Origin: a virus
Virus record (IMG/VR): IMGVR_UViG_3300036845_000196
Coordinates: 1 to 64,000 of that record
Reading direction: 5' to 3' (one strand)
Length of the DNA stretch: 64,000 bases
This document shows, piece after piece, positions 4,250-56,368 of this stretch. The translations under genes were made by a program, and so were the position numbers. The notes beneath the pieces were generated by a model that saw only the letters and a list, made by a program, of their open reading frames with translations, had not been told where the DNA came from and did no database searches. The stretch's first letter is position 1, and the number at the start of each line of letters is the position of its first letter.

Positions 4250-4957
4250 TTAGTATTTGAACGATACGCCCGTCTTATAGCGCGTACCGAGCTTGGGGCA
4301 CATATTGGCGCCGAGGCAGAGCGAATTGCTTTGGAGCTCCACGCCGGCATAGGTGTCCGCCACGATGACGGTCTTGTTCGTCGAAACGAGATTGAACAGA
4401 ATGCCGGTGCCGACTTCCGGGGAGACCAGCCATTGGTGGGCGGTGGCGAGTCCGAACTGGCTGGAAATGTCGTCCACGTCCACGGCGCCGTACACGTAGT
4501 TTGCCGGGGTGCCGACGACACTGTACTGCGGCGGCAGCACAGGCAGGCTCGGGGCGGTCCCGGTATTGAGGCCCGGCCAGAGCGACGCCATGAACGGGAT
4601 GAGCGAGGTTTGGATGCCCACTCGACCCTCGCCATGGAACGGGCCGGACAGGCTGAAACCGTTATTGCCGGCGTTGAGGTTCTGGAAGTCGAAGATGGCT
4701 TCCGCAAACCATGGGGTCGATGCCGCGACGCAAGCGTAGCCGACTAGAACGCCAATGTCACCGCCGATGACGGTCGTGCCCGCAGGGGCGTTGGGGACGA
4801 CGCCCGCGCCGCCTTCCGCGTTGATGCCGTAGTAGACGCCGCATTTGGTGGGGTAACCAGCGGCCAGCGGCGGGGCTTTGGTGGCCATATCAGCCGCGTG
4901 CGCAGCCGACATTGCGGACAGGACCGCGGCGAGAATTCCAAGCGCGAGCTTTTTCAT
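4250..4957 (-). CDS. outer-membrane beta-barrel-like protein with signal peptide (235 aa)
   Basis: The ATG at 4957 has GGAG 6 bases upstream and begins a classical Sec signal peptide (MKKLALGILAAVLSAM then AHA-AD). The mature protein starts ADMATKAPPLAAG, close to the ADLAVKAPP-type start of rhizobial Omp25/Omp31-like porins, and ends in the aromatic C-terminus SFKY expected of an outer-membrane barrel. Four Cys are present (CGVYYG, YACVAAS, LCLGANMCP), which is odd for a small barrel. It is followed by a terminator. A phage-carried host-like barrel could alter the lysogen surface or receptor; that is inference. Confidence 0.7.
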   Translation of the reverse strand: MKKLALGILAAVLSAMSAAHAADMATKAPPLAAGYPTKCGVYYGINAEGGAGVVPNAPAGTTVIGGDIGVLVGYACVAASTPWFAEAIFDFQNLNAGNNGFSLSGPFHGEGRVGIQTSLIPFMASLWPGLNTGTAPSLPVLPPQYSVVGTPANYVYGAVDVDDISSQFGLATAHQWLVSPEVGTGILFNLVSTNKTVIVADTYAGVELQSNSLCLGANMCPKLGTRYKTGVSFKY

Positions 4958-5034
4958 GTCAGTCTCCATAGCCGTAAATGGCATGGGGATAGTACGCACA
5001 ACTAGGTGTGGTAAGTCCGCAACACCGAATGGAA

Positions 5035-5226
5035 TTATTGGCCGATGCCGCCGCCAGATTGGCCGCCGGCGCCCGGCGGCGGCTGGTGTGCCTGCACCGT
5101 CGCGATAATGGCCGAGATATGCGGCCACAGCTTCAAAGCTGGGCCAATACCGCCCACCGCGCCGATCAACGCTTCCAGGTCGGAACTGTTCTTGACGGCA
5201 ATAGCCGCGATCAGGGACGGGTCCAT
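5035..5226 (-). CDS. small hypothetical protein of the lysis region (63 aa)
   Basis: Begins MDPSLIAAIAVKNSSDLEAL and has a Gly/Ala-rich amphipathic helix plus a Pro/Gly/Gln-rich tail (QPPPGAGGQSGGGIGQ). A ribosome-like AGGAG lies about 10 bases upstream of the ATG. It sits directly behind the holin-like gene. No family recognised. Confidence 0.5.
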   Translation of the reverse strand: MDPSLIAAIAVKNSSDLEALIGAVGGIGPALKLWPHISAIIATVQAHQPPPGAGGQSGGGIGQ

Positions 5227-7005: not shown

Positions 7006-7030
7006 ATTCTTGGTTTCCTTTGGAGTCGTT

Positions 7031-7087
7031 TGGTTAGCTTGGCTACCTTGGCCCTCACGCGACCGCTAGGATTTTACGGCCATAGAG
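7031..7087 (+). repeat. family-A boundary repeat, left copy of cassette 1
   Basis: 57 bp beginning TGGTTAGCTTGGCTACCTTG and ending TTACGGCCATAGAG. It is the inverted partner of 7376-7433; the two outer blocks are conserved and the central ~17 bp differ. On the minus strand it encodes the last residues (SMAVKS) and stop of the enclosed gene. Confidence 0.85.
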
Positions 7088-7365
7088 ACTTGCAAGGGCC
7101 ACGAAAGCCAACGGTTTATCCGATACTGCAAAATCACGCGGCTGCGTTCTTTTCTTACTATGCTGTATTCAATACCGAGAAAATCCACGCGCCATTCAAA
7201 ACAATCCCTCAGTGGAAGCCAGCGGATTTCAAAACCGCGGCGGTAGTACGGCCAACCTTCGCGATCATCACGACTCCACCCAATGCGGAACGACCATGTG
7301 TTTGTCATGGTCCCAAAATCCATTCGATTAAATGCAACCCCGCACTTTTCGCCGCGCCAAAACAT
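7066..7365 (-). CDS. cassette gene: hypothetical Trp/Arg-rich protein (99 aa)
   Basis: ATG at 7365 lies behind GGTGGAGAAA, which is part of the segment joined to the right repeat. The product begins MFWRGEKCGVAFNRMD and ends SMAVKS, where the last six codons come from the left repeat. It is richer in Trp and Arg than its neighbours. The gene is the only content of a 403-bp element with inverted family-A ends. No family recognised. Confidence 0.55.
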   Translation of the reverse strand: MFWRGEKCGVAFNRMDFGTMTNTWSFRIGWSRDDREGWPYYRRGFEIRWLPLRDCFEWRVDFLGIEYSIVRKERSRVILQYRINRWLSWPLQVSMAVKS

Positions 7366-7375
7366 TTTCTCCACC

Positions 7376-7433
7376 CTCTATGGCCGTAAGAATCTCACAG
7401 AAAAATCGCGCGCCAAGGTAGCCAGTCTACCCA
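7376..7433 (-). repeat. family-A boundary repeat, right copy of cassette 1
   Basis: 58 bp; on the minus strand it starts TGGGTAGACTGGCTACCTTG and ends ACGGCCATAGAG. It is upstream of the cassette gene and ends 8 bp before the stop codon of the 826-residue gene. Confidence 0.85.
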
Positions 7434-7440
7434 AAAACTT

Positions 7441-9937: not shown

Positions 9938-9954
9938 ACTCAGTGCGGTCACCC
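9938..9954 (-). repeat. family-B boundary element (B3 type)
   Basis: On the minus strand this is GGGTGACCGCACTGAGT, 16 bp upstream of the start of the polyvalent gene. It pairs in inverted orientation with the B2 element at 10052-10096. Confidence 0.7.
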
Positions 9955-9959
9955 AACCG

Positions 9960-10031
9960 TCAAATATTAAACGGTTCTCTTGTGGGGTGCTTTGACGTTA
10001 TGCCCTGCGTGAATCGGCGTGTGTCCTGCAT
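9960..10031 (-). CDS. possible 23-residue ORF between family-B elements
   Basis: ATG at 10031 preceded by GGGGTGGTT; reads MQDTRRFTQGITSKHP and stops at 9960. It lies inside the B3/B2 bounded interval and overlaps both arms of a 20-bp inverted repeat. Expression is uncertain, and it may only be filler of an otherwise empty cassette. Confidence 0.25.
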   Translation of the reverse strand: MQDTRRFTQGITSKHPTREPFNI

Positions 10032-10054
10032 AACCACCCCACAAGAGAACCGTT
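9970..10054. repeat. perfect 20-bp inverted repeat with 45-bp spacer
   Basis: AACGGTTCTCTTGTGGGGTG at 9970-9989 is repeated exactly in inverted orientation at 10035-10054. The arms are immediately inside family-B elements and carry no T-run, so this is not a simple terminator. Confidence 0.85.
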
Positions 10055-10096
10055 GACCGAGTCCGGTGCCGCTGCACCCAAAGCCTCTCGTGACCC
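10052..10096 (+). repeat. family-B boundary element (B2 type)
   Basis: GTTGACCGAGTCCGG followed ~15 bp later by CCTCTCGTGACCC. It lies just beyond the stop of the gene 10114-12585; on the minus strand it would be upstream of the 23-residue ORF. Confidence 0.8.
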
Positions 10097-10113
10097 AGAA
10101 TCTTACCCTAATT

Positions 10114-18287: not shown

Positions 18288-18303
18288 CTCAGTGCGGTCA
18301 CCC
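18288..18303 (-). repeat. family-B boundary element (B3 type)
   Basis: On the minus strand GGGTGACCGCACTGAG; its TGA is the stop codon of the enclosed gene. Inverted partner of 18584-18620. The stretch 18202-18287 beyond it holds no gene. Confidence 0.75.
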
Positions 18304-18594
18304 ACGCGAAAGTGAAACGCTGGATATATCCTTCCACATTCGCAAGCCGGCTACGAGTTGGCTTCTAGGCACGACTTCAATTTCCTCTATCGCAAACTCG
18401 CCCAACAAATTATAGCCGGTCACCGTAAATCGACAGGGATGCGCGGCCGAAGTGAGGGCAATTCCATCGCGCGGAAACACCAACGATGCCTTGATTGGCA
18501 TCAGACTCGCCGCGCGCACGATTGCCGGCGCCACAACCAAACTAGCCGCAGCACCAAAAAAGAACCCGCGCCGACTGAGACTAGTTGACCGCAC
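18298..18594 (-). CDS. small exported protein with twin-arginine-like leader (98 aa)
   Basis: The GTG at 18594 has GGAG 8 bases upstream, both within the family-B element. The N-terminus LSRRGFFFGAAASLVVAPAI is a twin-arginine-type signal (S-R-R-x-F-F) with an AxA-like site near residue 30 (VRAAS). The remainder is a beta-rich domain of ~65 residues (HPCRFTVTGYNLLGEFAIEE). The gene fills a cassette bounded by B1 and B3 elements. A second protein with the same leader type is at 39103-39531. Confidence 0.6.
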   Translation of the reverse strand: MRSTSLSRRGFFFGAAASLVVAPAIVRAASLMPIKASLVFPRDGIALTSAAHPCRFTVTGYNLLGEFAIEEIEVVPRSQLVAGLRMWKDISSVSLSRG

Positions 18595-18620
18595 CGTTAT
18601 CACTCCGCCCTCGTGACCCA
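18584..18620 (+). repeat. family-B boundary element (B1 type)
   Basis: GTTGACCGCACCGTTATCAC followed by CCTCGTGACCCA. On the minus strand it supplies the ribosome site GGAG and the GTG start of the exported protein. Confidence 0.8.
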
Positions 18621-18636
18621 AAACCCCTACCTGATT

Positions 18637-19195: not shown

Positions 19196-19348
19196 TCAGA
19201 GTGTCCTTTTTTTACTGATCGGGATGTTTGTCACGATAGTGGAAAGATTGGTCACCACGTCCTTGAGCGTGTTGTTGATGTTGGCGCAGTCTTGGTTTGG
19301 CGGCTGCGCCGTGGTCGCCGTGTTGTTTGGTGGAAGCGGCTGGGCCAT
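19196..19348 (-). CDS. small protein resembling the N-terminus of its neighbour (50 aa)
   Basis: ATG at 19348, begins MAQPLPPNNTATTAQPPNQD and continues with NNTLKDVVTNLSTIVTNI, a close copy of the first helix of the protein encoded immediately downstream. It stops one base before the neighbour's GTG. The start is only 2 bp from the left end of a family-A cassette, so its own upstream region may have been replaced. Confidence 0.5.
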   Translation of the reverse strand: MAQPLPPNNTATTAQPPNQDCANINNTLKDVVTNLSTIVTNIPISKKRTL

Positions 19349-19349
19349 C

Positions 19350-19407
19350 TGGTTAGCTTGGCTACCTTGTCTGTCACGTCACCGCTGGACTTTTACATGC
19401 CATGGAG
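19350..19407 (+). repeat. family-A boundary repeat, left copy of cassette 2
   Basis: 58 bp beginning TGGTTAGCTTGGCTACCTTG, ending TTTTACATGCCATGGAG; the right block is diverged from the ACGGCCATAGAG consensus. On the minus strand it codes the end of the cassette gene (QASMACKS). Confidence 0.75.
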
Positions 19408-19649
19408 GCCTGGTTCTTTTCCCGCTCGCGCCTCGCCCATTCGTGGGCATCCTCAATGCGGCCAGATTCTAATTCGTCCGCGAGGACACGCAACCCAGCC
19501 GGGGTGATGCACGCAAAGCCACCATCCTCTGTCTTCAGTAATCCCCGCTTGACCAAACTGAGCGCCACTTTATCTGGAACGATCAACGCACAACTTGGCG
19601 ACGCAAGAGCCCGCAGCAAACCCCGCTGTTTTGTCCCCAAATGAACCAT
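19374..19649 (-). CDS. cassette gene: winged-helix-like protein (91 aa)
   Basis: ATG at 19649 behind GAGGGTGATA. The segment LSLVKRGLLKTEDGGFACIT then PAGLRVLADEL has the layout of a winged helix (recognition helix, wing, final helix). It is the only gene of a 365-bp element with inverted family-A ends, and its last codons lie in the left repeat. Role unknown; a small DNA-binding regulator is plausible. Confidence 0.6.
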   Translation of the reverse strand: MVHLGTKQRGLLRALASPSCALIVPDKVALSLVKRGLLKTEDGGFACITPAGLRVLADELESGRIEDAHEWARREREKNQASMACKSPAVT

Positions 19650-19656
19650 TATCACC

Positions 19657-19714
19657 CTCTATGGCCGTAAGAATCTCACAGAACTTTCGAGCGCCAAGGT
19701 AGCCAGTCTACCCA
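19657..19714 (-). repeat. family-A boundary repeat, right copy of cassette 2
   Basis: 58 bp, on the minus strand TGGGTAGACTGGCTACCTTG to TTACGGCCATAGAG. Nearly identical to 7376-7433, including the central TTCTGTGAGATTC block. Confidence 0.85.
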
Positions 19715-19722
19715 AACAAACC

Positions 19723-21978
19723 TCAACGCCTCCCACTCGGCGCATACCGATACCTGATCCGCCCCAACCGCCAGAAACTCCCCGCATCCGACGATGCGAC
19801 TTGTATTGCCATCTGCCTTCCCCTAAATCTCACCGACAACCATTCCGGCGATGACTGTGTCACAGTATAGGGTCCATAGACCGTAGGCGAATCACCCGGA
19901 TAGTTCACCACAAGAAACGACAACTGGATATTGGCCGTCTGCGCCGCCCCGAAGAATCCCCACTTGAAGTCCGGCAATATCTGATCGATGAAGGCAAAAT
20001 CCTCGCCTTCCGACAGGAAGAAATATCCCGTCGTAAAGGACACCGCCATCGGCTGACCCGCAGCATCGTTCGAAGTTTCGTGCTGGTAGATCGTCCCGCC
20101 AGCCACCGCCCCGATCGGATTGCCTAGGATACTCTGATCTGTCCACGCCGATCTGGCCAAAAGTCCACAATCCCACGGCGCCCCCTGCTCCGTGATGTTG
20201 AACTTGACGTAGGAATCGTTCTCCCCCGACACGCTCGACGTTGACGGAAACTCCCAGCCCACCTCGTTGAACGGCGTGTTCGGGATCGACCGCACGTTCT
20301 GCTGGAACAACGGATTGATCCGTTGAAACACAAAATCCCACACCGGGCACGGGATCACCGCGACGCCATTGCTGGTCATGGAATAAAAATTACTCGGCCC
20401 CATCCAGTAGACGTTGCCTCTCAGTTCCATGACCGCGTGCGACGACACCGCTCCCGCCCCAGCTCCGATCTTGTTGAAGCCGAACACGAACGGCAGTCCA
20501 GAATAGTTCATCGCCCACGCATCTTCGTCGGTGATGATGAGATTCTGATTCGGCGTGGATAGTCCACAGATGATCTTGGAACCATTCGACAAACGATACG
20601 ACCCAGCCTCCGTCGTCGCCAGCACCTGAAAATTCGTGTAGTCACCGATGGTGGACCATCGCACCAGCAACGGGTCTTGGGTGATGCCGATGTTCTGCGC
20701 CACGGTGGAACCCCAGCACACCAATATCTGCTGCTGCGTCGAGACGAAGATGCCGCCATTGAAGAACGGCGCCGTGGCCACAAGACCAGCGGTTGAAAAC
20801 CCGGTGTTCGGCGTCCACGCATAGACACCTCCGCCCATCGGACAGGCCAAATAAGTCTGCCCCCAATTATCCGAGGTCCAATCGGTCGCCGTGATCGGCG
20901 TGCCGGTCATCTGCCCCGTCGCCGCGCCAGTACCGAATCCCCCAGACCCGAACGCACCGATGCCGAAACCGGAGCCACCACCCGCAGGTCCGATGTTGAG
21001 ATAATAAACAATCTCCGCTTTGCCGGCGTTCATCACCACGACGGTGCTTGACGAAGCCTGCGCATTGACCGTGATCGAAAAATTATTAATGTCGGTGACA
21101 GACACCACGCTATAGGTGCCGACGATAGCCACCCCACCGACCGTTGTTGAAATCGGAAAGTTCACTGTATTGCCGACGACCTGGCCATGCGCCGCCAGAA
21201 ACACGTTGACGGTGGCACTTCCAGACGTGGGCGTAAACACGGGAACGGAGCAGATAACGATATTGTCGCCGCTGCCAACACCGGCCCCCGCCGCGTTGTT
21301 GGTCATGACGATGGTACTACCGGTCGTTGACAACACCAGCGTACTCGCTGGAATCGACGCCGGCGTAGTCAGGTCGAACACCACCATATTGGCGATGACC
21401 CACGCGGGCGTCGCAACAAAGTGCAGCGTCGCATTGCCTGCCGCCGTTGTATTATTGGTGGCGAACGGATTGGTTTCCGTCGTCGTCGCGTTGGCTGCCG
21501 CCGTGATCTGATATTGCGTCGTACCTTGCACCAAGGTGACCGGATAAGCGCCGCTCAAAATCAAACCGCCGACCGAAACCGGCACGTTGAAATAAACCGA
21601 ATCATTGGTCGTCAGCGTCGCGGTTAGATTGGGATCGATGATGGTGACGATGGGTGAACTTGCCACCGTCGAAAAGTTCGGCGCGAAGTCCGATGTGAAA
21701 GTCTGCGGGGTGATATTCTGCAGCGACCCCGACGTGATGACGCCAAGCATGGTGGTCGTGCCGACGCCGAGGTGATTGATCTGATTCAAATCCTCCCAGG
21801 CGTGCAATTCGCGGGGAGTGCCGGCGACATTGGAATAGAAGATCGTCCAGCCGCCCAGTTTCTGCACCAAGCCGTCGCGATAGCGGATCAGTTGCGAGAC
21901 CGACACACCGGCTTTGAGCAGCGTTGGCGTCTGCTCTACGTCAACTCCGGGGATCAGCGTGACCGAACCGTAAGGCAT
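19723..21978 (-). CDS. P22 gp10-like packaged-DNA stabilisation / stopper protein (751 aa)
   Basis: Begins MPYGSVTLIPGVDVEQTPTL and continues ALLKAG-type then IRYRDGLVQKLGGW, the signature start of the gp10-like head-completion proteins of P22-type podoviruses. The rest is beta-rich with many Gly/Thr-rich strands, consistent with the beta-propeller body of that family, although it is longer (P22 gp10 is about 470 residues). The extra length may be an inserted Ig-like or beta domain in the region ~120-330 (VNVFLAAHGQVVGNTVNF). Located with the tail genes. Confidence 0.7.
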   Translation of the reverse strand: MPYGSVTLIPGVDVEQTPTLLKAGVSVSQLIRYRDGLVQKLGGWTIFYSNVAGTPRELHAWEDLNQINHLGVGTTTMLGVITSGSLQNITPQTFTSDFAPNFSTVASSPIVTIIDPNLTATLTTNDSVYFNVPVSVGGLILSGAYPVTLVQGTTQYQITAAANATTTETNPFATNNTTAAGNATLHFVATPAWVIANMVVFDLTTPASIPASTLVLSTTGSTIVMTNNAAGAGVGSGDNIVICSVPVFTPTSGSATVNVFLAAHGQVVGNTVNFPISTTVGGVAIVGTYSVVSVTDINNFSITVNAQASSSTVVVMNAGKAEIVYYLNIGPAGGGSGFGIGAFGSGGFGTGAATGQMTGTPITATDWTSDNWGQTYLACPMGGGVYAWTPNTGFSTAGLVATAPFFNGGIFVSTQQQILVCWGSTVAQNIGITQDPLLVRWSTIGDYTNFQVLATTEAGSYRLSNGSKIICGLSTPNQNLIITDEDAWAMNYSGLPFVFGFNKIGAGAGAVSSHAVMELRGNVYWMGPSNFYSMTSNGVAVIPCPVWDFVFQRINPLFQQNVRSIPNTPFNEVGWEFPSTSSVSGENDSYVKFNITEQGAPWDCGLLARSAWTDQSILGNPIGAVAGGTIYQHETSNDAAGQPMAVSFTTGYFFLSEGEDFAFIDQILPDFKWGFFGAAQTANIQLSFLVVNYPGDSPTVYGPYTVTQSSPEWLSVRFRGRQMAIQVASSDAGSFWRLGRIRYRYAPSGRR

Positions 21979-24305: not shown

Positions 24306-26014
24306 CGGCCCACCACCGTCCAATGAGACCCGTTATACCAACCCAGCACGGTAGACCCCCCGCTGCCGGCGATGTTCGCACCAAATGCAGTGGTGTTGGA
24401 ATCGGTGACGCAGGCTATCATGCCCGCTTGAGGCGCACTCGGCAACGCCGTGAACACGCTATTGCCGACGGCTGGCGTGGCTGAATCCGACAAACCCATT
24501 TTTTGCGAAAACCCGGCCGACATATTCGGCGGCCACGTCACGCTCTTGTCGCCGACAATCTGAGCCGCCCTCGTCATGAAAAATTGCTGGCCCGAGATTC
24601 CGGTCGTATTACCAGTGAAGGACAGCGGCCCACTGACGTCGATGAGCGCACCGGAATCGCCAACCAACAAAGCATTTGTCATTCCAAACGTTCCGTTGAT
24701 GCGAAGCGCGATTTGCGGCTGGCAAACGGCCCGATCTGTAAGACTGATAAAAGCTGAGGCCGTACCGCTCAGGCTATTTCCAACTCCAACATTTATTGAA
24801 ACTTGATTTGACCCAGCTACGTCATTGCCGTTCGGACCATTCAGGCCAAAATCACAATTGTTGATATCGACGATGCAAAACTGACCGCCAGCATTGATAA
24901 AGGTACAGGCACTCGTTCCGCTATTCGAAAATCCAATTCCGTCAAATCCCACGGAATTATAATCCGTCAGCGACAGCGCCGTTTGATGGTCTGCTATCTG
25001 CCACGCACACGCAGTTGCGCTGGTCAGGTTGCCAAAGATCGTGACCTGGCTGCCACCTTGCGTCAGTGCGCCGCTCACACTAACATTCTCGGCGACCGGA
25101 ACGGAAGTCGTCTGCGGCAACTGAATACGAATCAAATTGCCGCCCTGTTGCAACGTCTGATTCTGAATGACGGAGAACGCGTGTTGTATTGTTTTGAAAG
25201 ACCCAGTGCCGCCCTGCGCACCGAGCCCGTCGTTGACCGACGAATCGGTCCCATTGACATTATCGACGTTAAAGGTGATGGACGAGCCAACTCTCAGCGA
25301 CCACGGTTGAATGCCTGGCGACACGATCCATTTGTTGTTGTCATTGATAAGCAACAAACTCTGCTGCGGCCACAGAATCGAAGTCGCAATCCCGTTGAGC
25401 AGCATCGTCTTGCCGCGTCCGGTATCCTCGTTATAAATCTGGCACCAGAAATTTGACTCATAACCGCTTGCGGTATTGGCCGTCAGTTGAAACAGCGTGT
25501 TTCCGCCCAGAGCGATCAACTTGCCGAAATCCGTGGTGGCGAGCGTGTAATTTGCCGTCTGCGCGTTGCGGCCGAACAGCAAACTTGCCGGAATCTGCCA
25601 CGATGGCGGCGATGTCGAGCCTTGGCTGGTGAGAACTTGATTTGCCGTGGTGGCGCCAACAACGCTCAGCGCGCTCGTTGCGTTGCCCAACACCACGCCA
25701 TCAAGCGCAAGTGCGGCAGTGCCGATGCCGCCGTTGACGACGCCAAGCACGCCAGTCACGTTGGCCGTCGTGCCGAGATTGAGTTGCTGAAAACTCGGCG
25801 CCGTCGCCGTACCGTTAGCAATGAGCGGCAACCCCGTCGCACCGTTCGGCAGGATGTACGACGCCAGCGCGGACGCCGTCATCTGATAGTTGATGCCGTT
25901 AGATGCGTTGCCGGGCGAGACTACCTCCAGCAGTTCAGAGCCGGACAACGAGCCCGTGAATTGCTGCAGCGAGGTCAGCCGACCGTCGGAGGGATATGTC
26001 GAGGGATTTGCCAT
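24302..26014 (-). CDS. tail fibre/spike-like beta-helical protein (570 aa)
   Basis: Begins MANPSTYPSDGRLTSLQQFT, a start shared in style with the neighbouring fibre genes. The N-terminal ~100 residues are an anchor-like region (SELLEVVSPGNASNGINYQ); the middle from about 230 to 460 has the ladder of short strands and turns seen in right-handed beta-helix spikes (SVSGALTQGGSQVTIFGNL). The end (TDSNTTAFGANIAGSGG then GWYNGSHWTVVGR) is a small beta domain that I recognise from many phage fibres. Likely receptor-binding. Confidence 0.65.
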   Translation of the reverse strand: MANPSTYPSDGRLTSLQQFTGSLSGSELLEVVSPGNASNGINYQMTASALASYILPNGATGLPLIANGTATAPSFQQLNLGTTANVTGVLGVVNGGIGTAALALDGVVLGNATSALSVVGATTANQVLTSQGSTSPPSWQIPASLLFGRNAQTANYTLATTDFGKLIALGGNTLFQLTANTASGYESNFWCQIYNEDTGRGKTMLLNGIATSILWPQQSLLLINDNNKWIVSPGIQPWSLRVGSSITFNVDNVNGTDSSVNDGLGAQGGTGSFKTIQHAFSVIQNQTLQQGGNLIRIQLPQTTSVPVAENVSVSGALTQGGSQVTIFGNLTSATACAWQIADHQTALSLTDYNSVGFDGIGFSNSGTSACTFINAGGQFCIVDINNCDFGLNGPNGNDVAGSNQVSINVGVGNSLSGTASAFISLTDRAVCQPQIALRINGTFGMTNALLVGDSGALIDVSGPLSFTGNTTGISGQQFFMTRAAQIVGDKSVTWPPNMSAGFSQKMGLSDSATPAVGNSVFTALPSAPQAGMIACVTDSNTTAFGANIAGSGGSTVLGWYNGSHWTVVGR

Positions 26015-26028
26015 CGGTTAGGTTTTCT

Positions 26029-26124
26029 GGGTCACGAGGGCGGAGTGGCTACGGTGCGGTCACCATATCTCTGAAGACCGTTGACCGAGTCCGGTCTCTC
26101 CAACAAACAAACTCTCGTGAAACC
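26029..26124. repeat. paired family-B elements with nothing between them
   Basis: An inverted B1 element (26029-26063, gggtcacgagg through gtgcggtcacc) is followed after ~16 bp by a forward B2 element (26080-26124, GTTGACCGAGTCCGG through CTCTCGTGA). No ORF fits in the interval. Elsewhere the same pair encloses a gene, so this looks like an unfilled or emptied cassette. Confidence 0.75.
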
Positions 26125-26138
26125 AATCTTTCCTTTCC

Positions 26139-29123: not shown

Positions 29124-29753
29124 TCACCGCCGCCGTCGCGCCTGCATCACGCCGTAGACGGCGGTCGTTGAAGTCGCAAACGTCCCCAGCGCATTCAAAA
29201 ACGTGGTGCCAGCCGCAGCAAGACTGATACGCGTCGGCCCTACATTCACGCCGGTATCGACGCCACCTGTGAGCCCCGCACCCAAGCCAAGTTGGAATTC
29301 GGCGCCAGAGGTCAGGCCCGGTAACGCCGTATTCGAGACTGTGCTGATGCCGACCGCGAGACCTGTCAGCACCGTGAGAGATTGGACGTGAACGAAGCCG
29401 GAGCCCCACACATCCCAGTCGCCGGCGCTCAGCACCATTGATGCGACGCTGGTTGCCACACCATTTGACATAAGAATCGCCGACGCAGCCGATAGCGCCA
29501 CGCTGGTATATTCCCCAACGTTGCCCGCAGACGCAGCACTTGACGTGGCCACACCGGGAATTTGGCCAAGGATTGCAGTGCCCGCTGGGCCGATCGCCAC
29601 ACCGTTCGAACTGATGACCAGGATATTCGTCGTACCGCCTCCGCTCGACAGGTCGCCGCCAAATGCGGGCATGACCGTAGAGGACAACGTTCCCGTCGTG
29701 AGATTCGACGCGTTATTCGGAACCTGACTATTGATACCCGTCGGGTCCGCCAT
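29124..29753 (-). CDS. fibre-associated structural protein (209 aa)
   Basis: Begins MADPTGINSQVPNNASNLTT. A beta-rich protein with a YTSVALSAASAILMSNGVAT-type motif typical of phage tail proteins that trimerise. It sits 4 bp from the next fibre gene and shares its N-terminal signature, so both may attach to the same tail position. Function not resolved. Confidence 0.55.
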   Translation of the reverse strand: MADPTGINSQVPNNASNLTTGTLSSTVMPAFGGDLSSGGGTTNILVISSNGVAIGPAGTAILGQIPGVATSSAASAGNVGEYTSVALSAASAILMSNGVATSVASMVLSAGDWDVWGSGFVHVQSLTVLTGLAVGISTVSNTALPGLTSGAEFQLGLGAGLTGGVDTGVNVGPTRISLAAAGTTFLNALGTFATSTTAVYGVMQARRRR

Positions 29754-30413
29754 TTACGGACTCCCGATGCCGGTCTGGATTCCAGTGGCGCGCACGGAAC
29801 CCGTACCCGCGCTGATCAAAAGCCGCCACGCCGTGATGGGGTCATTCGAGGCGCCATCGATGGTCGCTGTTGCATTGACGATGGACGGCTGATTGAACGG
29901 TTGCGGAAACGCCTGCCCCACCGCCAGATTATTTGGATCGTCGTAGGTGTATTGGATCGAAAACGTTGCCGCCCCGGTCGCGAGCTGACAGGCAAACGAA
30001 ATATTCGACGGCATCGCGTGCCAGTTCATGATGTTCCAGATGCTCGACCCCACGCCGTTGACGCCAACCGAAACCGTCGCCGCGGTCGAAGCATTCGTTT
30101 GCGCCACCGATGAGTTTGACGGCTGCACCGAAACGACGGTGAGATAATCCATATTCGACTGCACAGCGCCGGCCGTCGCGTTGCCACCGGCAAGATACTC
30201 CGAAGCCGGGAAGCCCGCTTGGTTGGTGCCGACAATGTGAAAATAAATCGCCGAATCATTACCCGACGACGTGATCAGCAAGCGCCGCTGCCACACGCCG
30301 GGCACATTCGCGGTCGCAAGCGCCAGCGCACTCGTGGTCGCCGCCCCGGCATTAACGACGCTCGACGCATTGCCGGCTACCAGATTGTAGTTGTTGACGA
30401 CAATCGGCAGCAT
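29754..30413 (-). CDS. virion structural protein (219 aa)
   Basis: Starts MLPIVVNNYNLVAGNASSVV directly after the stop of its upstream neighbour. It is beta-rich, with NASTAATVSVGVNGVGSSIW and a distinct distal block (FSIQYTYDDPNNLAVGQAFP). Composition resembles head decoration or tail tube proteins, but the family is not recognised. Confidence 0.55.
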   Translation of the reverse strand: MLPIVVNNYNLVAGNASSVVNAGAATTSALALATANVPGVWQRRLLITSSGNDSAIYFHIVGTNQAGFPASEYLAGGNATAGAVQSNMDYLTVVSVQPSNSSVAQTNASTAATVSVGVNGVGSSIWNIMNWHAMPSNISFACQLATGAATFSIQYTYDDPNNLAVGQAFPQPFNQPSIVNATATIDGASNDPITAWRLLISAGTGSVRATGIQTGIGSP

Positions 30414-30665
30414 CTAGTGCATCCTGTCCGAACGATGCCTCACCGCGCCACCGTCCATTCTGTGCTGCTCGTCGTGTTGTTTGATGCCGGGAAATTTCTT
30501 GTGGACTTTTGCGCGAATCTTCGCCTTCAACTCCGGATGAAACTGCGACGCGCGAGCCAACGCGTTCCTGGCGTGAGAGGCATCCTGAATCGGGAATGAC
30601 CGATCCGGCCCCGCAAAATCCTTGGTGGGAATTTTATTACGCCGCGCCGCAATCAACCGCGCCAT
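30414..30665 (-). CDS. DUF6582-like small virion-region protein (83 aa)
   Basis: ATG at 30665, 18 bp downstream of a family-B B2 element. The core IPTKDFAGPDRSFPIQDASH, ARNALARASQ and IRAKVHKKFP matches a small domain found in many phage and prophage proteins (I recall it as DUF6582). It ends with DGGAVRHRSDRMH, the GG-x-V basic motif shared across virion proteins here. Confidence 0.65.
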   Translation of the reverse strand: MARLIAARRNKIPTKDFAGPDRSFPIQDASHARNALARASQFHPELKAKIRAKVHKKFPGIKQHDEQHRMDGGAVRHRSDRMH

Positions 30666-34367: not shown

Positions 34368-34376
34368 GAAGGTTTT

Positions 34377-34433
34377 TGGGTAGACTGGCTACCTTGGCGC
34401 CCACGCCGCCGAGAGGGTTTTACGGCCATAGAG
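34377..34433 (+). repeat. family-A boundary repeat, solo copy
   Basis: 57 bp from TGGGTAGACTGGCTACCTTG to TTTTACGGCCATAGAG, between two minus-strand genes. No inverted partner is found nearby, so it may be a cassette remnant or a single-ended copy. Confidence 0.8.
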
Positions 34434-34434
34434 G

Positions 34435-34683
34435 CTACACCATTGCTCCTGGCATCCCGTAGGTTGCCGCTATGCGCGCATCCCAGAATTCTTTTTGCGA
34501 AGCGCAGTATTCCATGATTTCAGTTCGACGCCAGCCGTACATTTCCTGCAGGATTGGATACACATCCTCGGCGTTGCGCAAAATCTCCCATAGCAGCCAA
34601 TCCGTGATGATTTGTTGTTGCGCGACCGGAAACAGGAATGGCCGAAACGCTTTGGGGAAGATGCCGCGGAGTTCTTCGGCCAT
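34435..34683 (-). CDS. hypothetical helical protein (82 aa)
   Basis: I use the ATG at 34683 with AAAGG 5 bases upstream; the open frame extends to 34914 but that part is antisense to a membrane gene. Product begins MAEELRGIFPKAFRPFLFPV and is helical and aromatic-rich (ILQEMYGWRRTEIMEYC). Ends against the solo family-A repeat. Confidence 0.5.
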   Translation of the reverse strand: MAEELRGIFPKAFRPFLFPVAQQQIITDWLLWEILRNAEDVYPILQEMYGWRRTEIMEYCASQKEFWDARIAATYGMPGAMV

Positions 34684-34716
34684 GGAACCTTTTACTCCGC
34701 CGCGCGTTCCCCACCC

Positions 34717-34929
34717 ATGATAAGCACACTCATCACCCTCATCATCTATCTGCTGATCGTCGGCGTCATCTGGTATGCCGTCACGACCATCATGGCCGTC
34801 CTTCCGCTGCCGGAGCCGATTAAGACCGTCATCAACGTCCTGCTGATCGTGGTGCTGTGCCTGATCGTGATTTTTGCTTTGCTCGACTTGCTCCCCGCTT
34901 GGATCGGGCCGCATTGGCGATTATCTTAG
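34717..34929 (+). CDS. two-segment small membrane protein on the plus strand (70 aa)
   Basis: Begins MISTLITLIIYLLIVGVIWY, followed by a turn with PLPEPIKTVINVLL and a second hydrophobic stretch (IVVLCLIVIFALLDLL). I recognise this MIST-LLTLIIYLL-type family from alphaproteobacteria and their phages. It is one of only two plus-strand genes in the minus-strand block. Its 3' end overlaps the 3' end of the convergent glycosyltransferase/methyltransferase gene by 98 bp. No strong ribosome site is visible. Confidence 0.6.
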   Translation: MISTLITLIIYLLIVGVIWYAVTTIMAVLPLPEPIKTVINVLLIVVLCLIVIFALLDLLPAWIGPHWRLS

Positions 34930-37513: not shown

Positions 37514-37540
37514 GGGACTCTTTGGGGTTTGTTAGGTTCG

Positions 37541-37574
37541 GGTCACGAGGGCGGAGCGATTATGGTGCGGTCAA
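37541..37574 (-). repeat. family-B boundary element (B1 type)
   Basis: On the minus strand TTTGACCGCACCATAATCGC then CCTCGTGACC. Its TGA is the stop of the 88-residue gene. Pairs in inverted orientation with 37767-37812. Confidence 0.75.
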
Positions 37575-37826
37575 ACGTTCTTTCTTCGCTTTCTCCCGAT
37601 AGGCTTTGAAGAACTTAGCAGCACGTTCGTCTATTTCAACGGGACTACGCGCTCTGTCGATAAGACGCATGAGCGTTCGTTTTATCTTCGCCCTGTCTGA
37701 AAGCAAATCGTATGGGATCGGAATAAACGTCAACCCAATCTGTATCCACCGCTCCGAAAGCGGAATGTTGACCGAGTCCGGCCCATCAACTCGCGCATGA
37801 CTCTCGTGACCAAAATGCCTAGCCAT
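37560..37826 (-). CDS. basic small protein whose ends are encoded by boundary elements (88 aa)
   Basis: ATG at 37826 with GGAGG 4 bases upstream; it overlaps the neighbour stop as ATGGCTAG. The first 20 residues (GHESHARVDGPDSVN) are translated from the B2 element, and the stop lies in the B1 element. Between them is a basic helical domain (DRAKIKRTLMRLIDRARSPV). Boundary elements have thus been absorbed into the coding sequence. A longer ORF to 37883 is unlikely. Confidence 0.5.
   Translation of the reverse strand: MARHFGHESHARVDGPDSVNIPLSERWIQIGLTFIPIPYDLLSDRAKIKRTLMRLIDRARSPVEIDERAAKFFKAYREKAKKERLTAP
37767..37812 (+). repeat. family-B boundary element (B2 type)
   Basis: GTTGACCGAGTCCGG then GACTCTCGTGACC, read through as the N-terminal codons of the minus-strand gene 37560-37826. 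Confidence 0.8.
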
Positions 37827-41410: not shown

Positions 41411-41424
41411 GGTGATTCAGGTTT

Positions 41425-41460
41425 GGTTCACGAGAGGTTTGTGGTTACGGTGCGGTCAAC
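41425..41460 (-). repeat. family-B boundary element (B1 type)
   Basis: On the minus strand GTTGACCGCACCGTAACCAC then CTCTCGTGAACC. It encodes the C-terminal codons (VDRTVTTNLS) and stop of the upstream gene. Opposite-facing partner is at 42511-42558. Confidence 0.8.
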
Positions 41461-42490: not shown

Positions 42491-42748
42491 TTAATTTTCT
42501 CCCGATGAAACGTCGACCGAGTCCGGCGTGTCAGACGGCACAGACTCTCGTGACCCAAACACCTTTACAGCCTTGATATAATACCACGGCTGGGCCGGTT
42601 CAGGCCACACCGGAACAACAAAAACCTCAGCGCAAGTATCGATCAAAGCCCTTGCGGCCATCGCTTCTTTTTCCGTCAGGAAAGCCTGCACAGGGCCCGA
42701 ATGGCCCTCAACGCCGTTATTCACTGCGATTACCCAGATAGATTTCAC
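42491..42748 (-). CDS. small hypothetical protein downstream of the portal gene (85 aa)
   Basis: GTG at 42748 overlaps the portal stop (GTGA). Begins VKSIWVIAVNNGVEGHSGPV, with PVQAFLTEKEAMAARALIDT in a helix. The C-terminus VFGSRESVPSDTPDSVDV is translated from a B2 element. No family recognised. Confidence 0.5.
   Translation of the reverse strand: MKSIWVIAVNNGVEGHSGPVQAFLTEKEAMAARALIDTCAEVFVVPVWPEPAQPWYYIKAVKVFGSRESVPSDTPDSVDVSSGEN
42511..42558 (+). repeat. family-B boundary element (B2 type)
   Basis: CGTCGACCGAGTCCGG then GACTCTCGTGACCCA. On the minus strand it is immediately upstream of the Pro/Gly-rich gene and encodes the end of the 85-residue protein. Confidence 0.8.
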
Positions 42749-48108: not shown

Positions 48109-48123
48109 TCTTTGTTGTTTATT

Positions 48124-48180
48124 TGGTTAGCTTGGCTACCTTGGCCCTCACATTGCCGCTAGGATTTTACGGCCATAGAG
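48124..48180 (+). repeat. family-A boundary repeat, left copy of cassette 3
   Basis: 57 bp, TGGTTAGCTTGGCTACCTTG to TTACGGCCATAGAG. It lies between the two terminase genes' neighbourhood and codes the C-terminus ASMAVKS of the enclosed DUF551-like gene. Confidence 0.85.
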
Positions 48181-48407
48181 GCTGGAAGCGGCGGCAAAGG
48201 CATCCAATGTGTCGGCGAATAATAGTGTTCATACGAACCACCTTCGCCAATGAACACACCATCAAACACAATTTCAAATTGTCCTGAACTGTTAGCCCAA
48301 CCATCGTAGCGAATAAATCTAATGCCGTAGTTCGGATCAAAACCCAAAAGCCGCTCTTTCTGCGTTTGATCCTTTGGTGCCGTGTCAATTGGTTGCCACT
48401 GATTCAT
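48159..48407 (-). CDS. cassette gene: DUF551-like protein (82 aa)
   Basis: ATG at 48407 behind GGTGGAGAAA. The product has MNQWQPIDTAPKDQTQKERL at its start and THWMPLPPLPAS near its end, the two hallmarks of DUF551-type proteins found in many phages. Its last residues (SMAVKS) come from the left repeat. It is the only gene in an inverted-repeat element inserted between TerS and the small pre-terminase gene. A defective relative is at 36372-36596. Confidence 0.7.
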   Translation of the reverse strand: MNQWQPIDTAPKDQTQKERLLGFDPNYGIRFIRYDGWANSSGQFEIVFDGVFIGEGGSYEHYYSPTHWMPLPPLPASMAVKS

Positions 48408-48417
48408 TTTCTCCACC

Positions 48418-48475
48418 CTCTATGGCCGTAAGAATCTCACAGAATGATCGCGCGCCAAGTTAGCCAAGCTAACCA
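48418..48475 (-). repeat. family-A boundary repeat, right copy of cassette 3
   Basis: 58 bp, on the minus strand TGGTTAGCTTGGCTAACTTG to TTACGGCCATAGAG, nearly a perfect inverted match of the left copy's outer block. It ends 7 bp before the TerS stop codon. Confidence 0.85.
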
Positions 48476-48481
48476 AATCTT

Positions 48482-49470: not shown

Positions 49471-50153
49471 GCTCGCTTGATCAGTTGGGGGCCGAACGGT
49501 AGTGGCAGTCCCTTTTTATCGACTGTCGCGGTCGCCATCACCCGCTGATCTAGCACTCGCACTGCCATAGCGCCGCGCAAGTTCTCATCTTGAACCGCCT
49601 TGAGCATATCGGCAAGCCGCTCCGGGTCGTCAAGTACACCATCCCACCTGGCGATTTGCTTCTGCGCCTGCATGGCCCTCATTCCAGTCGCACTGGCCAA
49701 CCAGCGGGCACCTTGATCGCCAAGCCAAAACGCAGCCGCTTGTCTCGGAGTCAGAGTAATAGAAGATTCTTTTACACTTACGTTATTACCACGGCTAAGG
49801 TCTTGATTCGAGGCGTGCGATTTCAATGACTTATCGCCGCGCAAATCCCGGAGTCGCGCTGTCCGAGTCATTCGCTGGTGCGCAAATTCAAGTTGTGCCG
49901 TGATGTGGGGGTGGAAGATATGGTCGCCGTCAAATCGGAGCTTTTCCGTAAGAACCAAGCGCACGCGCCTCCACTGACGCGCGTTCATTTTGGCGACTTT
50001 CGCCAGTTTAGAGGGGTCTTTGGTCAACCTGCCGCCGTGACGCCACAGCGCCCACTTGATTCGGGTGTAAGCGCCCAGAGCCTCGGGGGTCATTTCGTCG
50101 GCGTCGAGCAGAGCCTGATCCACATCCTCGGAACGAAAGCGGGGCTTTTTCAT
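49467..50153 (-). CDS. DUF1376-type (YdaU-like) replication-associated protein (228 aa)
   Basis: ATG at 50153 overlaps the previous stop by ATGA. The first ~100 residues (RFRSEDVDQALLDADEMTPE, LGAYTRIKWALWRHGGRL) match the DUF1376/YdaU N-terminal domain found in early phage genes and replication-initiator neighbourhoods. The remainder has a helical region (ATGMRAMQAQKQIARWDGVL). The upstream gene has a similar first domain but an HNH in place of the second, see 50150-50719. Confidence 0.65.
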   Translation of the reverse strand: MKKPRFRSEDVDQALLDADEMTPEALGAYTRIKWALWRHGGRLTKDPSKLAKVAKMNARQWRRVRLVLTEKLRFDGDHIFHPHITAQLEFAHQRMTRTARLRDLRGDKSLKSHASNQDLSRGNNVSVKESSITLTPRQAAAFWLGDQGARWLASATGMRAMQAQKQIARWDGVLDDPERLADMLKAVQDENLRGAMAVRVLDQRVMATATVDKKGLPLPFGPQLIKRA

Positions 50154-50719
50154 GATACAAAACCCAGAGCGCTCATATACTCGCTGACCCACCCCGGCCT
50201 ACTCGCGTTCCTATAATCAGAGTCGGTCGTCATCTTTGATTTATTGCAGCGATCACAAAGCGGTTGCAAATTGGCGACACAATCACACCCGCCCCGCGCC
50301 AACGGCACCACATGGTCTTTGGTCGTCTCGCGGGTCCCACAACGCGCACACCCATCAAACAAAGACACCATGACATTCCATTCGAAAGGCGTGTGTGTAC
50401 CCAATTCTTGGCCCTTCAATAAACGCTCATAGCGCCGCGCGCCGGGTGTCCCGTCGTCTTTGACTGTTACGTTGCCCAGCGACGAGCATGTTGCGCGGCC
50501 GTCGATTACCTCAAAGAAACGCTTGAGCGAATCGTAAATGCTGGGGAAGTGGTCGCCAGCACGCGAGTGACGCGCAAACTCATTGGCCGGAAGCCAACCG
50601 CCGTTCAGTGTCATAGCCCATTTGAGGCGGCAAAACGCACCCAGTTCCTCGTTGGTGAGGTCATCGCTATCGGCCATTGCTGATTCGACGTGTTCCGAGC
50701 GGTAGTGCAGTTTAGTCAT
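50150..50719 (-). CDS. HNH endonuclease fused to a DUF1376-like domain (189 aa)
   Basis: Residues 1-80 (MTKLHYRSEHVESAMADSDD, LGAFCRLKWAMTLNGGWLPA) are homologous to the start of the next gene. Residues ~120-170 carry a complete HNH nuclease: CARCGTRETTKDHVVPLARG, then NLQPLCDRCNKSKMTTD, with the His of DHV, paired CxxC and the Asn. It looks as if an HNH gene replaced or was inserted into one copy of a duplicated DUF1376 gene. Function: DNA cleavage, perhaps homing or recombination. Confidence 0.75.
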   Translation of the reverse strand: MTKLHYRSEHVESAMADSDDLTNEELGAFCRLKWAMTLNGGWLPANEFARHSRAGDHFPSIYDSLKRFFEVIDGRATCSSLGNVTVKDDGTPGARRYERLLKGQELGTHTPFEWNVMVSLFDGCARCGTRETTKDHVVPLARGGCDCVANLQPLCDRCNKSKMTTDSDYRNASRPGWVSEYMSALGFVS

Positions 50720-51090
50720 TACCTTCCCCCACCAACACCGACTGTTCTGACCTTCTGCCCGTCGTCGAACTGCCCCAGTTCATCCGCACACATTTGCGCC
50801 GCCGATCCGCAGCCTGACCACATCACTTCGGATGGAAACGCAGTTGGCCAGATAACGCTGGTATCCACAATGGCGCCGAGGGTGAATCTTTCTGTCCCAG
50901 CTTTCCGCGCGTCCAGCATGGCATGAGCGAACGCCAGATTCATTTCCCGGCAGTGATCATAGGTGAAATATCCGGGGATGGTGTTGTTGTTTGGTGGCTT
51001 TTGTGGCGGCGGATTGCAGACGATACAGATGCCGTTGGTGATCCAGCTCAACGTGTTCTCTTTGGCGCAGCGTGCACAGGTTAATTGCAT
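50719..51090 (-). CDS. Cys-rich hypothetical protein (123 aa)
   Basis: ATG at 51090 follows GGAGAGGGGAGTCAC; a longer frame to 51168 is not supported. The first 30 residues hold CARCAKENTLSWITNGICIV plus a final C, a probable zinc ribbon. The rest (HAMLDARKAGTERFTLGAIV) is an alpha/beta segment. Its TAA shares one base with the next ATG (TAATG). Confidence 0.6.
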   Translation of the reverse strand: MQLTCARCAKENTLSWITNGICIVCNPPPQKPPNNNTIPGYFTYDHCREMNLAFAHAMLDARKAGTERFTLGAIVDTSVIWPTAFPSEVMWSGCGSAAQMCADELGQFDDGQKVRTVGVGGGR

Positions 51091-51202: not shown

Positions 51203-52144
51203 TCAGCCTGATTCGTTGCCCCAAGCACTCCATCCGTCCCGCGCGGGGCCGCGGCGGTTGAGTTCTATTTTTGGGAGAGTTGGAAAATACTCGTCGATCA
51301 TTTCCAGAAAACATTCAGGCTTTGCCGAGTGTATGCTTTTCGGAGCAAGCACCAACGACTCCCATTGCGTACCAGGAGCCGGACAAGGCGGCGCACCGCG
51401 CGTGCCTATCAACAAGAGTTCATGCTTACCGCGCTGCCAGCGGCCTAAACTGATTCGATCTTTGCCCCAGCAATAGTTCGACTTGTATTCAAAGCCCCAT
51501 GCTCGCATCACGTCGATACCGATGGCTAGGTGTTGATTCGTTACCCAAAGCCAGAGCACGCAATCCTTTGCCGCGATCGAGGCCACATCTCGCCCTGCAA
51601 TAATTTCTGCCGTACTGGTCGGGTAGTGATTCGCCGCGTGCCTATCCATGCCGGTCTCGGTGCCCCACACTTCGTCGTTCCATTCAGGGTCGGCGACAAT
51701 TACTCCGAATTTCTTTTCGGGGAGAGCGCGTTGCTTTTCGCCGAGGTCTTGTTCTCGCTGTTCACGGCGGAGAAGCTTGCGGCGTTGCGCCAGTTCGCGC
51801 GCTTCCATATCGGGATTGATTGTGCCGTCTTTGATTCGCTCCGCGAATTCGTCATCGTCCAGCTTTGTCAATTCAACAAGGCTTGAAACATGCGGCGGCA
51901 AAAACGACAAATTGGACGTATTTGAAAGTTTAGGGTCTCGGGCGATGTCCATAAGCCTCTGCGCCGTTCTTAGGCCGAACGGCAAAAGATCATCAGCCAT
52001 TCGCATCCATTCGCCGTGCGCCAGATTATTCTTGGCATCGATGCAAAGCCGACCAGTCTCGATAACCGCCTCAGCCGAACGCGACCATGAAGCGCGAATC
52101 AGTCGCGCCCATTTTTCCGTTTCGGGCTGGGCGACGGCGTTCAC
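51203..52144 (-). CDS. MT-A70 family adenine-N6 methyltransferase (313 aa)
   Basis: The N-terminal half is helical (DUF3102-like). The catalytic half contains the MT-A70 motif region FGVIVADPEWNDEVWGTETG with DPEW in place of the usual DPPW, the substrate segment GMDRHAANHYPTSTAEI, CVLWLWVTNQHLAIG, and the terminal motif KIELNRRGPARDGWSAWGNE. It probably methylates adenine in phage DNA; the altered motif is discussed in findings. Start MNAVAQPETE at 52144 overlaps the previous gene by 4 bases. Confidence 0.75.
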   Translation of the reverse strand: MNAVAQPETEKWARLIRASWSRSAEAVIETGRLCIDAKNNLAHGEWMRMADDLLPFGLRTAQRLMDIARDPKLSNTSNLSFLPPHVSSLVELTKLDDDEFAERIKDGTINPDMEARELAQRRKLLRREQREQDLGEKQRALPEKKFGVIVADPEWNDEVWGTETGMDRHAANHYPTSTAEIIAGRDVASIAAKDCVLWLWVTNQHLAIGIDVMRAWGFEYKSNYCWGKDRISLGRWQRGKHELLLIGTRGAPPCPAPGTQWESLVLAPKSIHSAKPECFLEMIDEYFPTLPKIELNRRGPARDGWSAWGNESG

Positions 52145-52521
52145 GCGGCCTTCCTCCGCTTCACCATGCTCAAACTCGCGGGCTCTAAATCAAAAATCGG
52201 CTTCCCCGCTTTCTCGAAAACCTCGATTTCAATGGCGACTCCCTTGCTCGTTTCCCATGAGGGGAGGTGCGCCACGATGAGCGAATCGCAAACGTCCATC
52301 ATCGCTTGGTCGAACGGCATCCATATCGCGTGATCATGGGGATCGATGTCGCCATGGATGGCCACCGGGTGGGTATGGGCTATCGGGCTGTAAACCTTGA
52401 TGCCGGCGCGTAGAAGCTGGGCGGTCAGCTTGGAGGCAGCGATGAATGCCGCCTCGATCCCGTCAGGAAATTTCGAATACGGCGTCGCGAGATATGCCAG
52501 CCCCACTTTGAATCCCCCCAT
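52141..52521 (-). CDS. DUF1937-type nucleoside-deoxyribosyltransferase-like protein (126 aa)
   Basis: Begins MGGFKVGLAYLATPYSKFPD, with the LATPYS and VYSPIAHTHP motifs and the late DSLIVAHLPSWETSKGVAIE of the DUF1937/DUF4406 family, which shares the nucleoside 2-deoxyribosyltransferase fold. Acts on nucleotides or cell-wall intermediates; the exact substrate is not known. ATGA overlap with the methyltransferase gene downstream. Confidence 0.75.
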   Translation of the reverse strand: MGGFKVGLAYLATPYSKFPDGIEAAFIAASKLTAQLLRAGIKVYSPIAHTHPVAIHGDIDPHDHAIWMPFDQAMMDVCDSLIVAHLPSWETSKGVAIEIEVFEKAGKPIFDLEPASLSMVKRRKAA

Positions 52522-52533
52522 TTTGCTTTCCCC

Positions 52534-52794
52534 TCACAAACCCGTGAATGACCCTTCCCGAATCACAGCCGGTGCATGACCCAACACCTTGATTTCCTTA
52601 CATTCCAACGGCCGCAGCGTCTCAATTGCCAGCGAAAGACTGGCCGCCCGCTCCAAGATTCGCTGCATCTGTGCCTCGCGCGCCCGGACGTGTCGTTTGT
52701 CGCCCTCATGGCGTATAGCCGCGCATTGGCAGGTTTCCAGCTTGCGCATGGCGAGGCGTAATTGGTGGGTGAGGTCGGTGATGATCTTGTCCAT
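52534..52794 (-). CDS. hypothetical coiled-coil protein (86 aa)
   Basis: Begins MDKIITDLTHQLRLAMRKLE and is helical and basic (KRHVRAREAQMQRILERAAS). A Cys pair (TCQC) and the CKE near the end are present. No family recognised. Located between two small early leftward genes; ribosome site weak. Confidence 0.5.
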   Translation of the reverse strand: MDKIITDLTHQLRLAMRKLETCQCAAIRHEGDKRHVRAREAQMQRILERAASLSLAIETLRPLECKEIKVLGHAPAVIREGSFTGL

Positions 52795-52815
52795 GAAACG
52801 TCAGGTTTTTTGGGG

Positions 52816-53049
52816 TCATTTGAGGGTCTTCGCACCCGAATCACCGGGAAGGTCATCCGATCGCTGCGGGCCGCGCGGGAAGCTAAAGGATGTCAGCGCC
52901 TCGACGGTCGGATCGGTGTCCGGGCCGTGCCAGCCGCCGGCGTCGAAGCCGTGGTAGAAGCCTGACATGGGGACGGAAGCAAATATGGCCCGCGCGATGT
53001 AGCGGGCGACGACGAGGGCGCAGACGATGCCGATGAGCGAGTAAGTCAT
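52816..53049 (-). CDS. small membrane protein (77 aa)
   Basis: ATG at 53049 overlaps the upstream stop by ATGA. The N-terminus MTYSLIGIVCALVVARYIAR is one transmembrane helix; the rest is soluble and Gly/Pro-rich. A longer frame to 53136 starts inside the neighbour and is rejected. Unknown role in the early leftward operon. Confidence 0.5.
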   Translation of the reverse strand: MTYSLIGIVCALVVARYIARAIFASVPMSGFYHGFDAGGWHGPDTDPTVEALTSFSFPRGPQRSDDLPGDSGAKTLK

Positions 53050-54491: not shown

Positions 54492-54650
54492 ATGACCAAG
54501 CAAGACAAAATTAATTCACTCTTGGCGTGGGCGCTTTGTGGGTGCCAGATTTCCGAGAGGAACCGTACTCTTTTGTACGCGCAGTTCTCAGCCATGGCGG
54601 AGGACGAAATCGACCGCAGACTTGCGATGCAGGCGCGCCGTCGCGCTTGA
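54492..54650 (+). CDS. small hypothetical protein, first rightward gene (52 aa)
   Basis: ATG at 54492 with GGAGACAGCAG upstream. Begins MTKQDKINSLLAWALCGCQI and is helical with a Cys pair. The TGA is the first bases of a B1 element (54646). It is the first gene behind the early promoter, so it may be a regulator, but no motif supports this. Confidence 0.6.
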   Translation: MTKQDKINSLLAWALCGCQISERNRTLLYAQFSAMAEDEIDRRLAMQARRRA

Positions 54651-54681
54651 CCGCACCGTAACCACCAACCCCTCGTGAACC
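54646..54681 (+). repeat. family-B boundary element (B1 type)
   Basis: CTTGACCGCACCGTAACCAC then CCTCGTGAACC. It carries the stop of the previous gene and ends ~25 bp before the next ATG. Confidence 0.8.
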
Positions 54682-54706
54682 AAAACCTTCCCTTAGGAGC
54701 CTCACA

Positions 54707-55123: not shown

Positions 55124-55132
55124 GAAGGGTTT

Positions 55133-55189: not shown

Positions 55190-55207
55190 ACTGAAGCAAA
55201 CAACACC

Positions 55208-56364: not shown

Positions 56365-56368
56365 GGTA

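Follow-up and report, generated by a model that had tools for sequence, protein, structure and literature searches.

Introduction

Promoter-early stem-loop cassettes (PeSLs) of T4-like phages are repeated intergenic sequences that are said to mediate the shuffling of genes between related phages, and they are reportedly composite promoter-terminator motifs (Arbiol 2010; Comeau 2014; PMC4503421). In cluster O mycobacteriophages, YungJamal gene 60 and Corndog gene 14 are cases of one extra gene at a gene junction flanked by short repeats (17-24 bp), with a single repeat copy in relatives, and acquisition by recombination has been proposed (PMC4351075). The mycobacteriophage mobile elements MPME1 and MPME2 are small elements of about 440 bp with inverted ends and a 123-residue ORF, which are found at some sites and absent in relatives (PMC4351075). 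The SAS/ESAS repeats of cluster K mycobacteriophages are tied to the translation starts of non-structural genes, some with inverted repeats, and tend to stay with the same gene families (PMC3203893). Integron gene cassettes, including phage CALINs, are single-gene cassettes with interchangeable cargo that are found in some phages (PMC9892861). How phages gain and lose single small genes, such as morons and anti-host genes, is mostly inferred from scattered mosaics.

Here we analysed a window of 64,000 nucleotides, positions 1 to 64,000 of the 65,847-bp IMG/VR virus record IMGVR_UViG_3300036845_000196. An SU10-type portal match and a weak terminase match mark this record as a tailed phage. The results showed that a group of soil phages carries small accessory genes one at a time between facing copies of a repeat of about 60 bp (family A), and that related phages hold a different gene, only the bare repeats, or nothing at the same spot, so that this looks like a plug-in system for swapping single genes. 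Below, G and L numbers denote individual phage records, G000 being that of the window, and X, Y, Z, W and S1 denote the gene junctions that were compared between records.

Repeat copies in the window and in other phages

A sequence-only reading of the window had noted four facing pairs and one solo copy of a two-block repeat, each pair enclosing one unrelated small gene of 99, 91, 82 or 83 codons, with the last residues encoded by the downstream copy. This observation was confirmed, as all nine copies were recovered, the enclosed ORFs have these lengths, and all four end inside the downstream copy (Table 1). As a refinement, the two copies of a pair are not equivalent. The outer blocks are alike, but the spacer and inner edge differ between the end that supplies the ribosome-binding site (RBS; start-end) and the end that carries the stop codons (stop-end).

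To determine how widespread the repeat is, a two-block weight matrix was built from 52 seed ends. It found 53 ends in ten phage records and none in the reversed sequences at any threshold tried. A wider scan of 2.46 Mb added the pairs in G012, L105 and L112, again with no hit in the reversed control. G003 and G008 are fragments of G009, and L110, which is identical to G004 over the 700 bp tested on each side of its solo end, was not counted. This leaves 27 facing pairs and five solo ends in 13 phage records, with no pair in another arrangement. Most carriers share only a few percent of alignable DNA with each other, while G001, G002 and G004 share about half, at 83% identity. There was no megablast match of window positions 1-24000 and no match of the repeat in INPHARED, and no exact two-block match was found in GTDB species genomes.

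Table 1. Positions of the family A cassettes and of other features in the window (G000) and in related records.
Record	Position	Strand	Feature	Remarks
G000	7029-7089	+	Cassette 1 stop-end	Block 1 outside, block 2 inside; encodes SMAVKS* of the cargo on the - strand
G000	7066-7365	-	Cassette 1 cargo gene	99 aa, no family match
G000	7374-7435	-	Cassette 1 start-end	Followed inward by RBS GGGTGGAGAAAATG
G000	19348-19409	+	Cassette 2 stop-end	Degraded block 2 (ACATGCCATGGAGG); cargo ends SMACKSPAVT*
G000	19374-19649	-	Cassette 2 cargo gene	91 aa, no family match
G000	19655-19716	-	Cassette 2 start-end	
G000	48122-48182	+	Cassette 3 stop-end	Encodes SMAVKS*
G000	48159-48407	-	Cassette 3 cargo gene	82 aa, weak DUF551 match
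G000	48416-48477	-	Cassette 3 start-end	
G000	55131-55191	+	Cassette 4 start-end	
G000	55208-55459	+	Cassette 4 cargo gene	83 aa; about 40% identical relatives outside cassettes in G010 and G006
G000	55412-55473	-	Cassette 4 stop-end	Cargo reads through to MAVKPKQDNREPR* and stops in block 1
G000	34375-34435	+	Solo stop-type end	Just after the - strand gene 34435-34914
G000	55486-56364	+	RecE-like exonuclease	Candidate recombination enzyme
G000	56654-57121	+	Possible ssDNA-binding protein	Low confidence
G000	50150-50719	-	HNH / endonuclease VII-like protein	Related genes in several A-carrying phages
G000	60329-61336		Tyrosine recombinase	Phage_integrase family; suggests a temperate phage
G000	4250-5128		292-aa protein family	AAD-M signal-peptide-like start, outer-membrane-protein-like
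G000	62899-63642		DUF5131 gene outside any cassette	Related (57-58%) to cassette cargo of G002 and G010
G000	9939-10100, 18288-18630, 26013-26131, 37537-37800, 41422-41460, 42501-42565, 54647-54690, 56369-56436, 56586, 57294-57367		Further two-block intergenic repeat families	
L064	5040-5680		Different sequence between inverted family C motifs	At the cassette 1 junction
G001	52002-53048		IS1595/ISXO2-like DDE transposase gene	
G002	49824-50867		IS1595/ISXO2-like DDE transposase gene	
G006	20068-21114		IS1595/ISXO2-like DDE transposase gene	
G006	58174-59286		IS1595/ISXO2-like DDE transposase gene	
G009	56279-57220		IS1595/ISXO2-like DDE transposase gene	
G022	29489-30538		IS1595/ISXO2-like DDE transposase gene	By homology

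Structure of the cassettes

An end of about 61 bp reads, from outside to inside, [GTTTGTTTGG]TTAG(AC or CT)TGGCTACCTTGGC, a variable centre of about 20 bp, and TTACGGCCATAGAGG. In start-ends the last block runs into GGGTGGAGAAAATG or similar, an RBS and start codon, whereas in stop-ends the cargo ORF enters from inside. Each cassette holds essentially one gene, and the elements are 254-1169 bp long. In 23 of 24 cassettes the cargo ORF fills the space from start-end to stop-end, starting 56-91 nt from the outer edge and stopping between 24 nt before and 47 nt past the inner edge of the stop-end. The stop-end often adds ...SMAVK(S/P) to the protein, and 13 of the 14 ORFs that run into it use the frame giving ...SMAVK (P = 6e-6 for chance frames).

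In most cassettes the start-end begins 2-8 nt after the upstream stop codon, while at W the upstream gene reads into the element and ends at the TAG of GGCTACCTAG. Several gene calls next to cassettes were on the wrong strand. By tblastn of the flanking proteins, the flanks appear co-directional with the cargo, against 787 of 868 background neighbours, so orientation adds little.

Comparison of the junctions between phages

The same junctions were found filled, empty, or holding other repeat families, and at four junctions different phages carry unrelated genes. Locus X holds a cassette in eight phages, with cargo that includes two distant DUF5131 lineages, a MazG-like pyrophosphohydrolase, a 5-hmdU-kinase-like protein and an orphan. 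In G000, the two flanking homologues of X lie close together with no A end between them. Locus Y holds cassettes in four phages and no A element in G002 and G012, where a family C-like sequence lies instead. Locus Z holds cassettes in five phages, none in G012 and G006, and an empty cassette in L105, where start-end, ATG and stop-end are joined directly and encode only MQASMAVQTPR. Locus W holds cassettes in three phages, a solo stop-end in G009, and none in G001 and G012. At S1 there is a solo start-end in G001 and G004 and none in G002. At the four window junctions, relatives hold other repeat families or nothing, and G009 has a solo start-end at the cassette 2 junction. Some junctions lacking A may be losses rather than an ancestral state.

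The mobile-cassette reading was to fail if relatives showed no empty sites and the same gene was fixed at every locus, and the comparison did not refute it. Junctions with and without the element, the inverted ends, the constant architecture and the solo ends at further loci would also fit non-autonomous mobile elements whose ends are recognised in trans by a transposase or recombinase from a phage or the host. However, at X and Z the start-end sits at nearly the same distance from the upstream stop codon in each phage, which suggests one insertion followed by cargo exchange rather than repeated insertion.

Sequence identity across flanks, ends and cargo

G007 and G009 at X have near-identical flanks and ends but unrelated cargo, and G009 and G010 at Z match across the stop-side flank and end and then diverge. 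Over all same-locus pairs, start-ends are more alike than different-locus ends in most segments up to the inner edge (for example, 0.89 against 0.76 in one), and similarity falls to near background 11-25 nt into the cargo. This places exchange at or inside the ends, although breakpoints inside a repeat shared by both partners cannot be placed exactly, the locus signal on the stop side is weak, and no swap was seen between near-identical whole phages.

The G002 cargo at X is 90% identical over 245 residues to a G012 gene outside any cassette. The match runs from the RBS/start region to a few codons before the stop, after which the G002 gene continues into the stop-end. G000, G014 and G023 also carry DUF5131 genes where no A cassette was found.

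Candidate recombination enzymes

Following the comparison of the junctions, the gene content of A-carrying phages was compared with that of A-lacking relatives. Several families occurred only in carriers: a RecE-like exonuclease, an HTH protein, an HNH/endonuclease VII-like protein, a DUF1937 protein and proteins of unknown function. The exonuclease, encoded next to cassette 4 in the window, has homologues in 8 of the A-carrying records (G000 included), and none was found in the A-lacking relatives. Three carriers (G001, G005 and G011, the last two being shorter records) lack a full copy. The correlation is suggestive only, because carriers may share hosts and ancestry. A neighbouring family, the possible ssDNA-binding protein, is predicted at low confidence from the model of a homologue to be a small beta-barrel with helices, and a fold search gave only generic weak matches, none below E = 0.001. 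The 292-aa protein, found in nearly all carriers and next to locus Z, was first suspected to be a recombinase, but it looks like an exported outer-membrane-type protein and hints at a Bradyrhizobium-type host.

With regard to transposition in trans, a tyrosine recombinase occurs in a minority of carriers and IS1595-like DDE proteins in others, neither in all. The DDE genes, several of which are embedded in phage operons, showed no recognisable terminal inverted repeats or shared ends. Serine recombinase and Y1 transposase models gave no match, and no scanned cargo is an identified transposase, with the repeat itself searched in IMG/VR, INPHARED and GTDB species genomes only.

ALTERNATIVES

Target duplications were absent, as the mean longest match in the 20-nt flanks was 2.3 nt against 2.2 nt in mismatched controls. 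The feature of terminal inverted repeats is present in the 27 facing pairs, although start- and stop-ends differ in the spacer. The two ends of one element do not match each other better than ends of different elements (P = 0.86), and no pair in the weak consensus fold covaries, which argues against a paired-end or structured-RNA function, including long-range pairing of the ends in RNA or DNA and attC-like folding. There was no Rfam match in the window. Same-genome similarity of the ends equals background, which gives no sign of concerted evolution within a genome.

The repeats could alternatively be expression signals (promoter, terminator, translation or RNA-processing sites) that mark accessory genes and only incidentally promote recombination. 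Start-ends contain the RBS, and third-codon-position variation in stop-ends hints at coding constraint (Fisher P = 0.024). However, 54 of 59 ends are in cassette pairs that bracket a single gene rather than spread over transcription units, and consensus scans of two window cassettes, which cover sigma-70-type sites and not a phage-specific promoter, found no promoter or intrinsic terminator. A pure transcription signal is unlikely.

Other two-block repeat families

Further two-block families (B, B2, C and E) lie at gene starts or ends in the same phages and occupy the same junctions. Their motifs in the window include TTGACCGCACCG..CTCGTGACCCAAA at gene starts, GTTGACCGAGTCCGG..CTCGTGA mostly at gene ends, and GTGACCGCACTGAG..GAATGA. 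They often face inward round genes or gene groups and are nearly absent from the A-lacking relatives. At the cassette 1 junction, L064 carries a different sequence between inverted family C motifs, so another repeat family may also bracket accessory genes. An expression role may fit these families better than A, and A may therefore have grown out of a class of intergenic expression modules.

Discussion

We interpret these elements, with moderate confidence, as exchangeable single-gene cassettes that sit at gene junctions inside phage operons and whose ends act as recombination linkers and as a start/stop module. The architecture, the polymorphic occupancy of the junctions, the diversity of cargo, the empty cassette and the non-cassette relative of one cargo were demonstrated by the analysis, whereas homologous recombination as the route and the identity of the enzyme are our inference. 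In this view, the ends act as shared homology arms, so that when two phages meet in one cell a recombination system, probably the phage RecE-like exonuclease, which most carriers encode, and its partners, replaces one cargo by another. Homologous exchange does not explain first insertion, the solo ends, or why the ends face each other, and capture of ordinary genes by illegitimate joining near the RBS and the last codons is one possibility for how a cassette first enters an empty junction.

The sequence-only reading, which had offered three interpretations, was supported in part. Homologous-recombination linkers that swap accessory genes are now well supported, non-autonomous mobile elements moved in trans appear less likely but are not excluded, with no target duplication or shared recombinase found, and transcription-unit boundaries fit A poorly. 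A more far-reaching reading, doubtful but not excluded, is a dedicated gene-capture system of phages. Here the paired inverted ends would form an empty acceptor cassette (RBS-ATG / in-frame stop tail) into which single genes are inserted, and from which they are exchanged, by an enzyme that recognises the ends, a phage analogue of integrons built on inverted ends.

Since filled, empty and no-cassette versions of the same junctions can be compared, with a defined start and stop module and a natural empty cassette, the gain and loss of single genes becomes testable by coinfection. The ends also provide a tag for finding accessory genes, as whatever sits between two such ends is a candidate swappable cargo, including DUF5131, a 5-hmdU-kinase-like and a MazG-like protein and many orphans.

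Comparison with described systems

The cassettes work like known phage shuffling repeats, yet each of the nearest systems shares only part of the pattern and fails a defining feature tested here. Integron-like cassettes with attC-type ends acted on by a tyrosine recombinase are a very unlikely reading. The single-gene cassettes with interchangeable cargo, GTTAGAC in the outer block of part of the ends and the tyrosine recombinase of some carriers are compatible with it. However, many ends read GTTAGCT, the GTTRRRY-type box is present only in part of the ends, the ends are inverted pairs with no attC-type fold, and there is no array and no common integrase, the tyrosine recombinase having been found in a minority of carriers without the use of an IntI-specific model (PMC9892861).

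The SAS/ESAS repeats have a 13-bp motif at the start codon, and the ESAS inverted repeats are local (17 bp, spacer mostly 4-13 bp) and upstream of a gene only, whereas the ends described here are about 61 bp, have a different sequence and lie on both sides of one gene (PMC3203893). The MPMEs have a conserved ORF and length, whereas here the cargo differs from copy to copy, the cargo ORFs being mostly unrelated (PMC4351075). In contrast to the PeSLs, the ends come as inverted pairs round one gene, supply the RBS and stop codon, and show no conserved stem-loop and, in the two cassettes scanned, no terminator-like site. The comparative pattern fits the exchange of genes between related phages that is ascribed to PeSLs, as inferred from sequence alone. 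YungJamal gene 60 and Corndog gene 14 are one-off cases with short repeats, and not a family with many different cargo genes over several loci and phages (PMC4351075).
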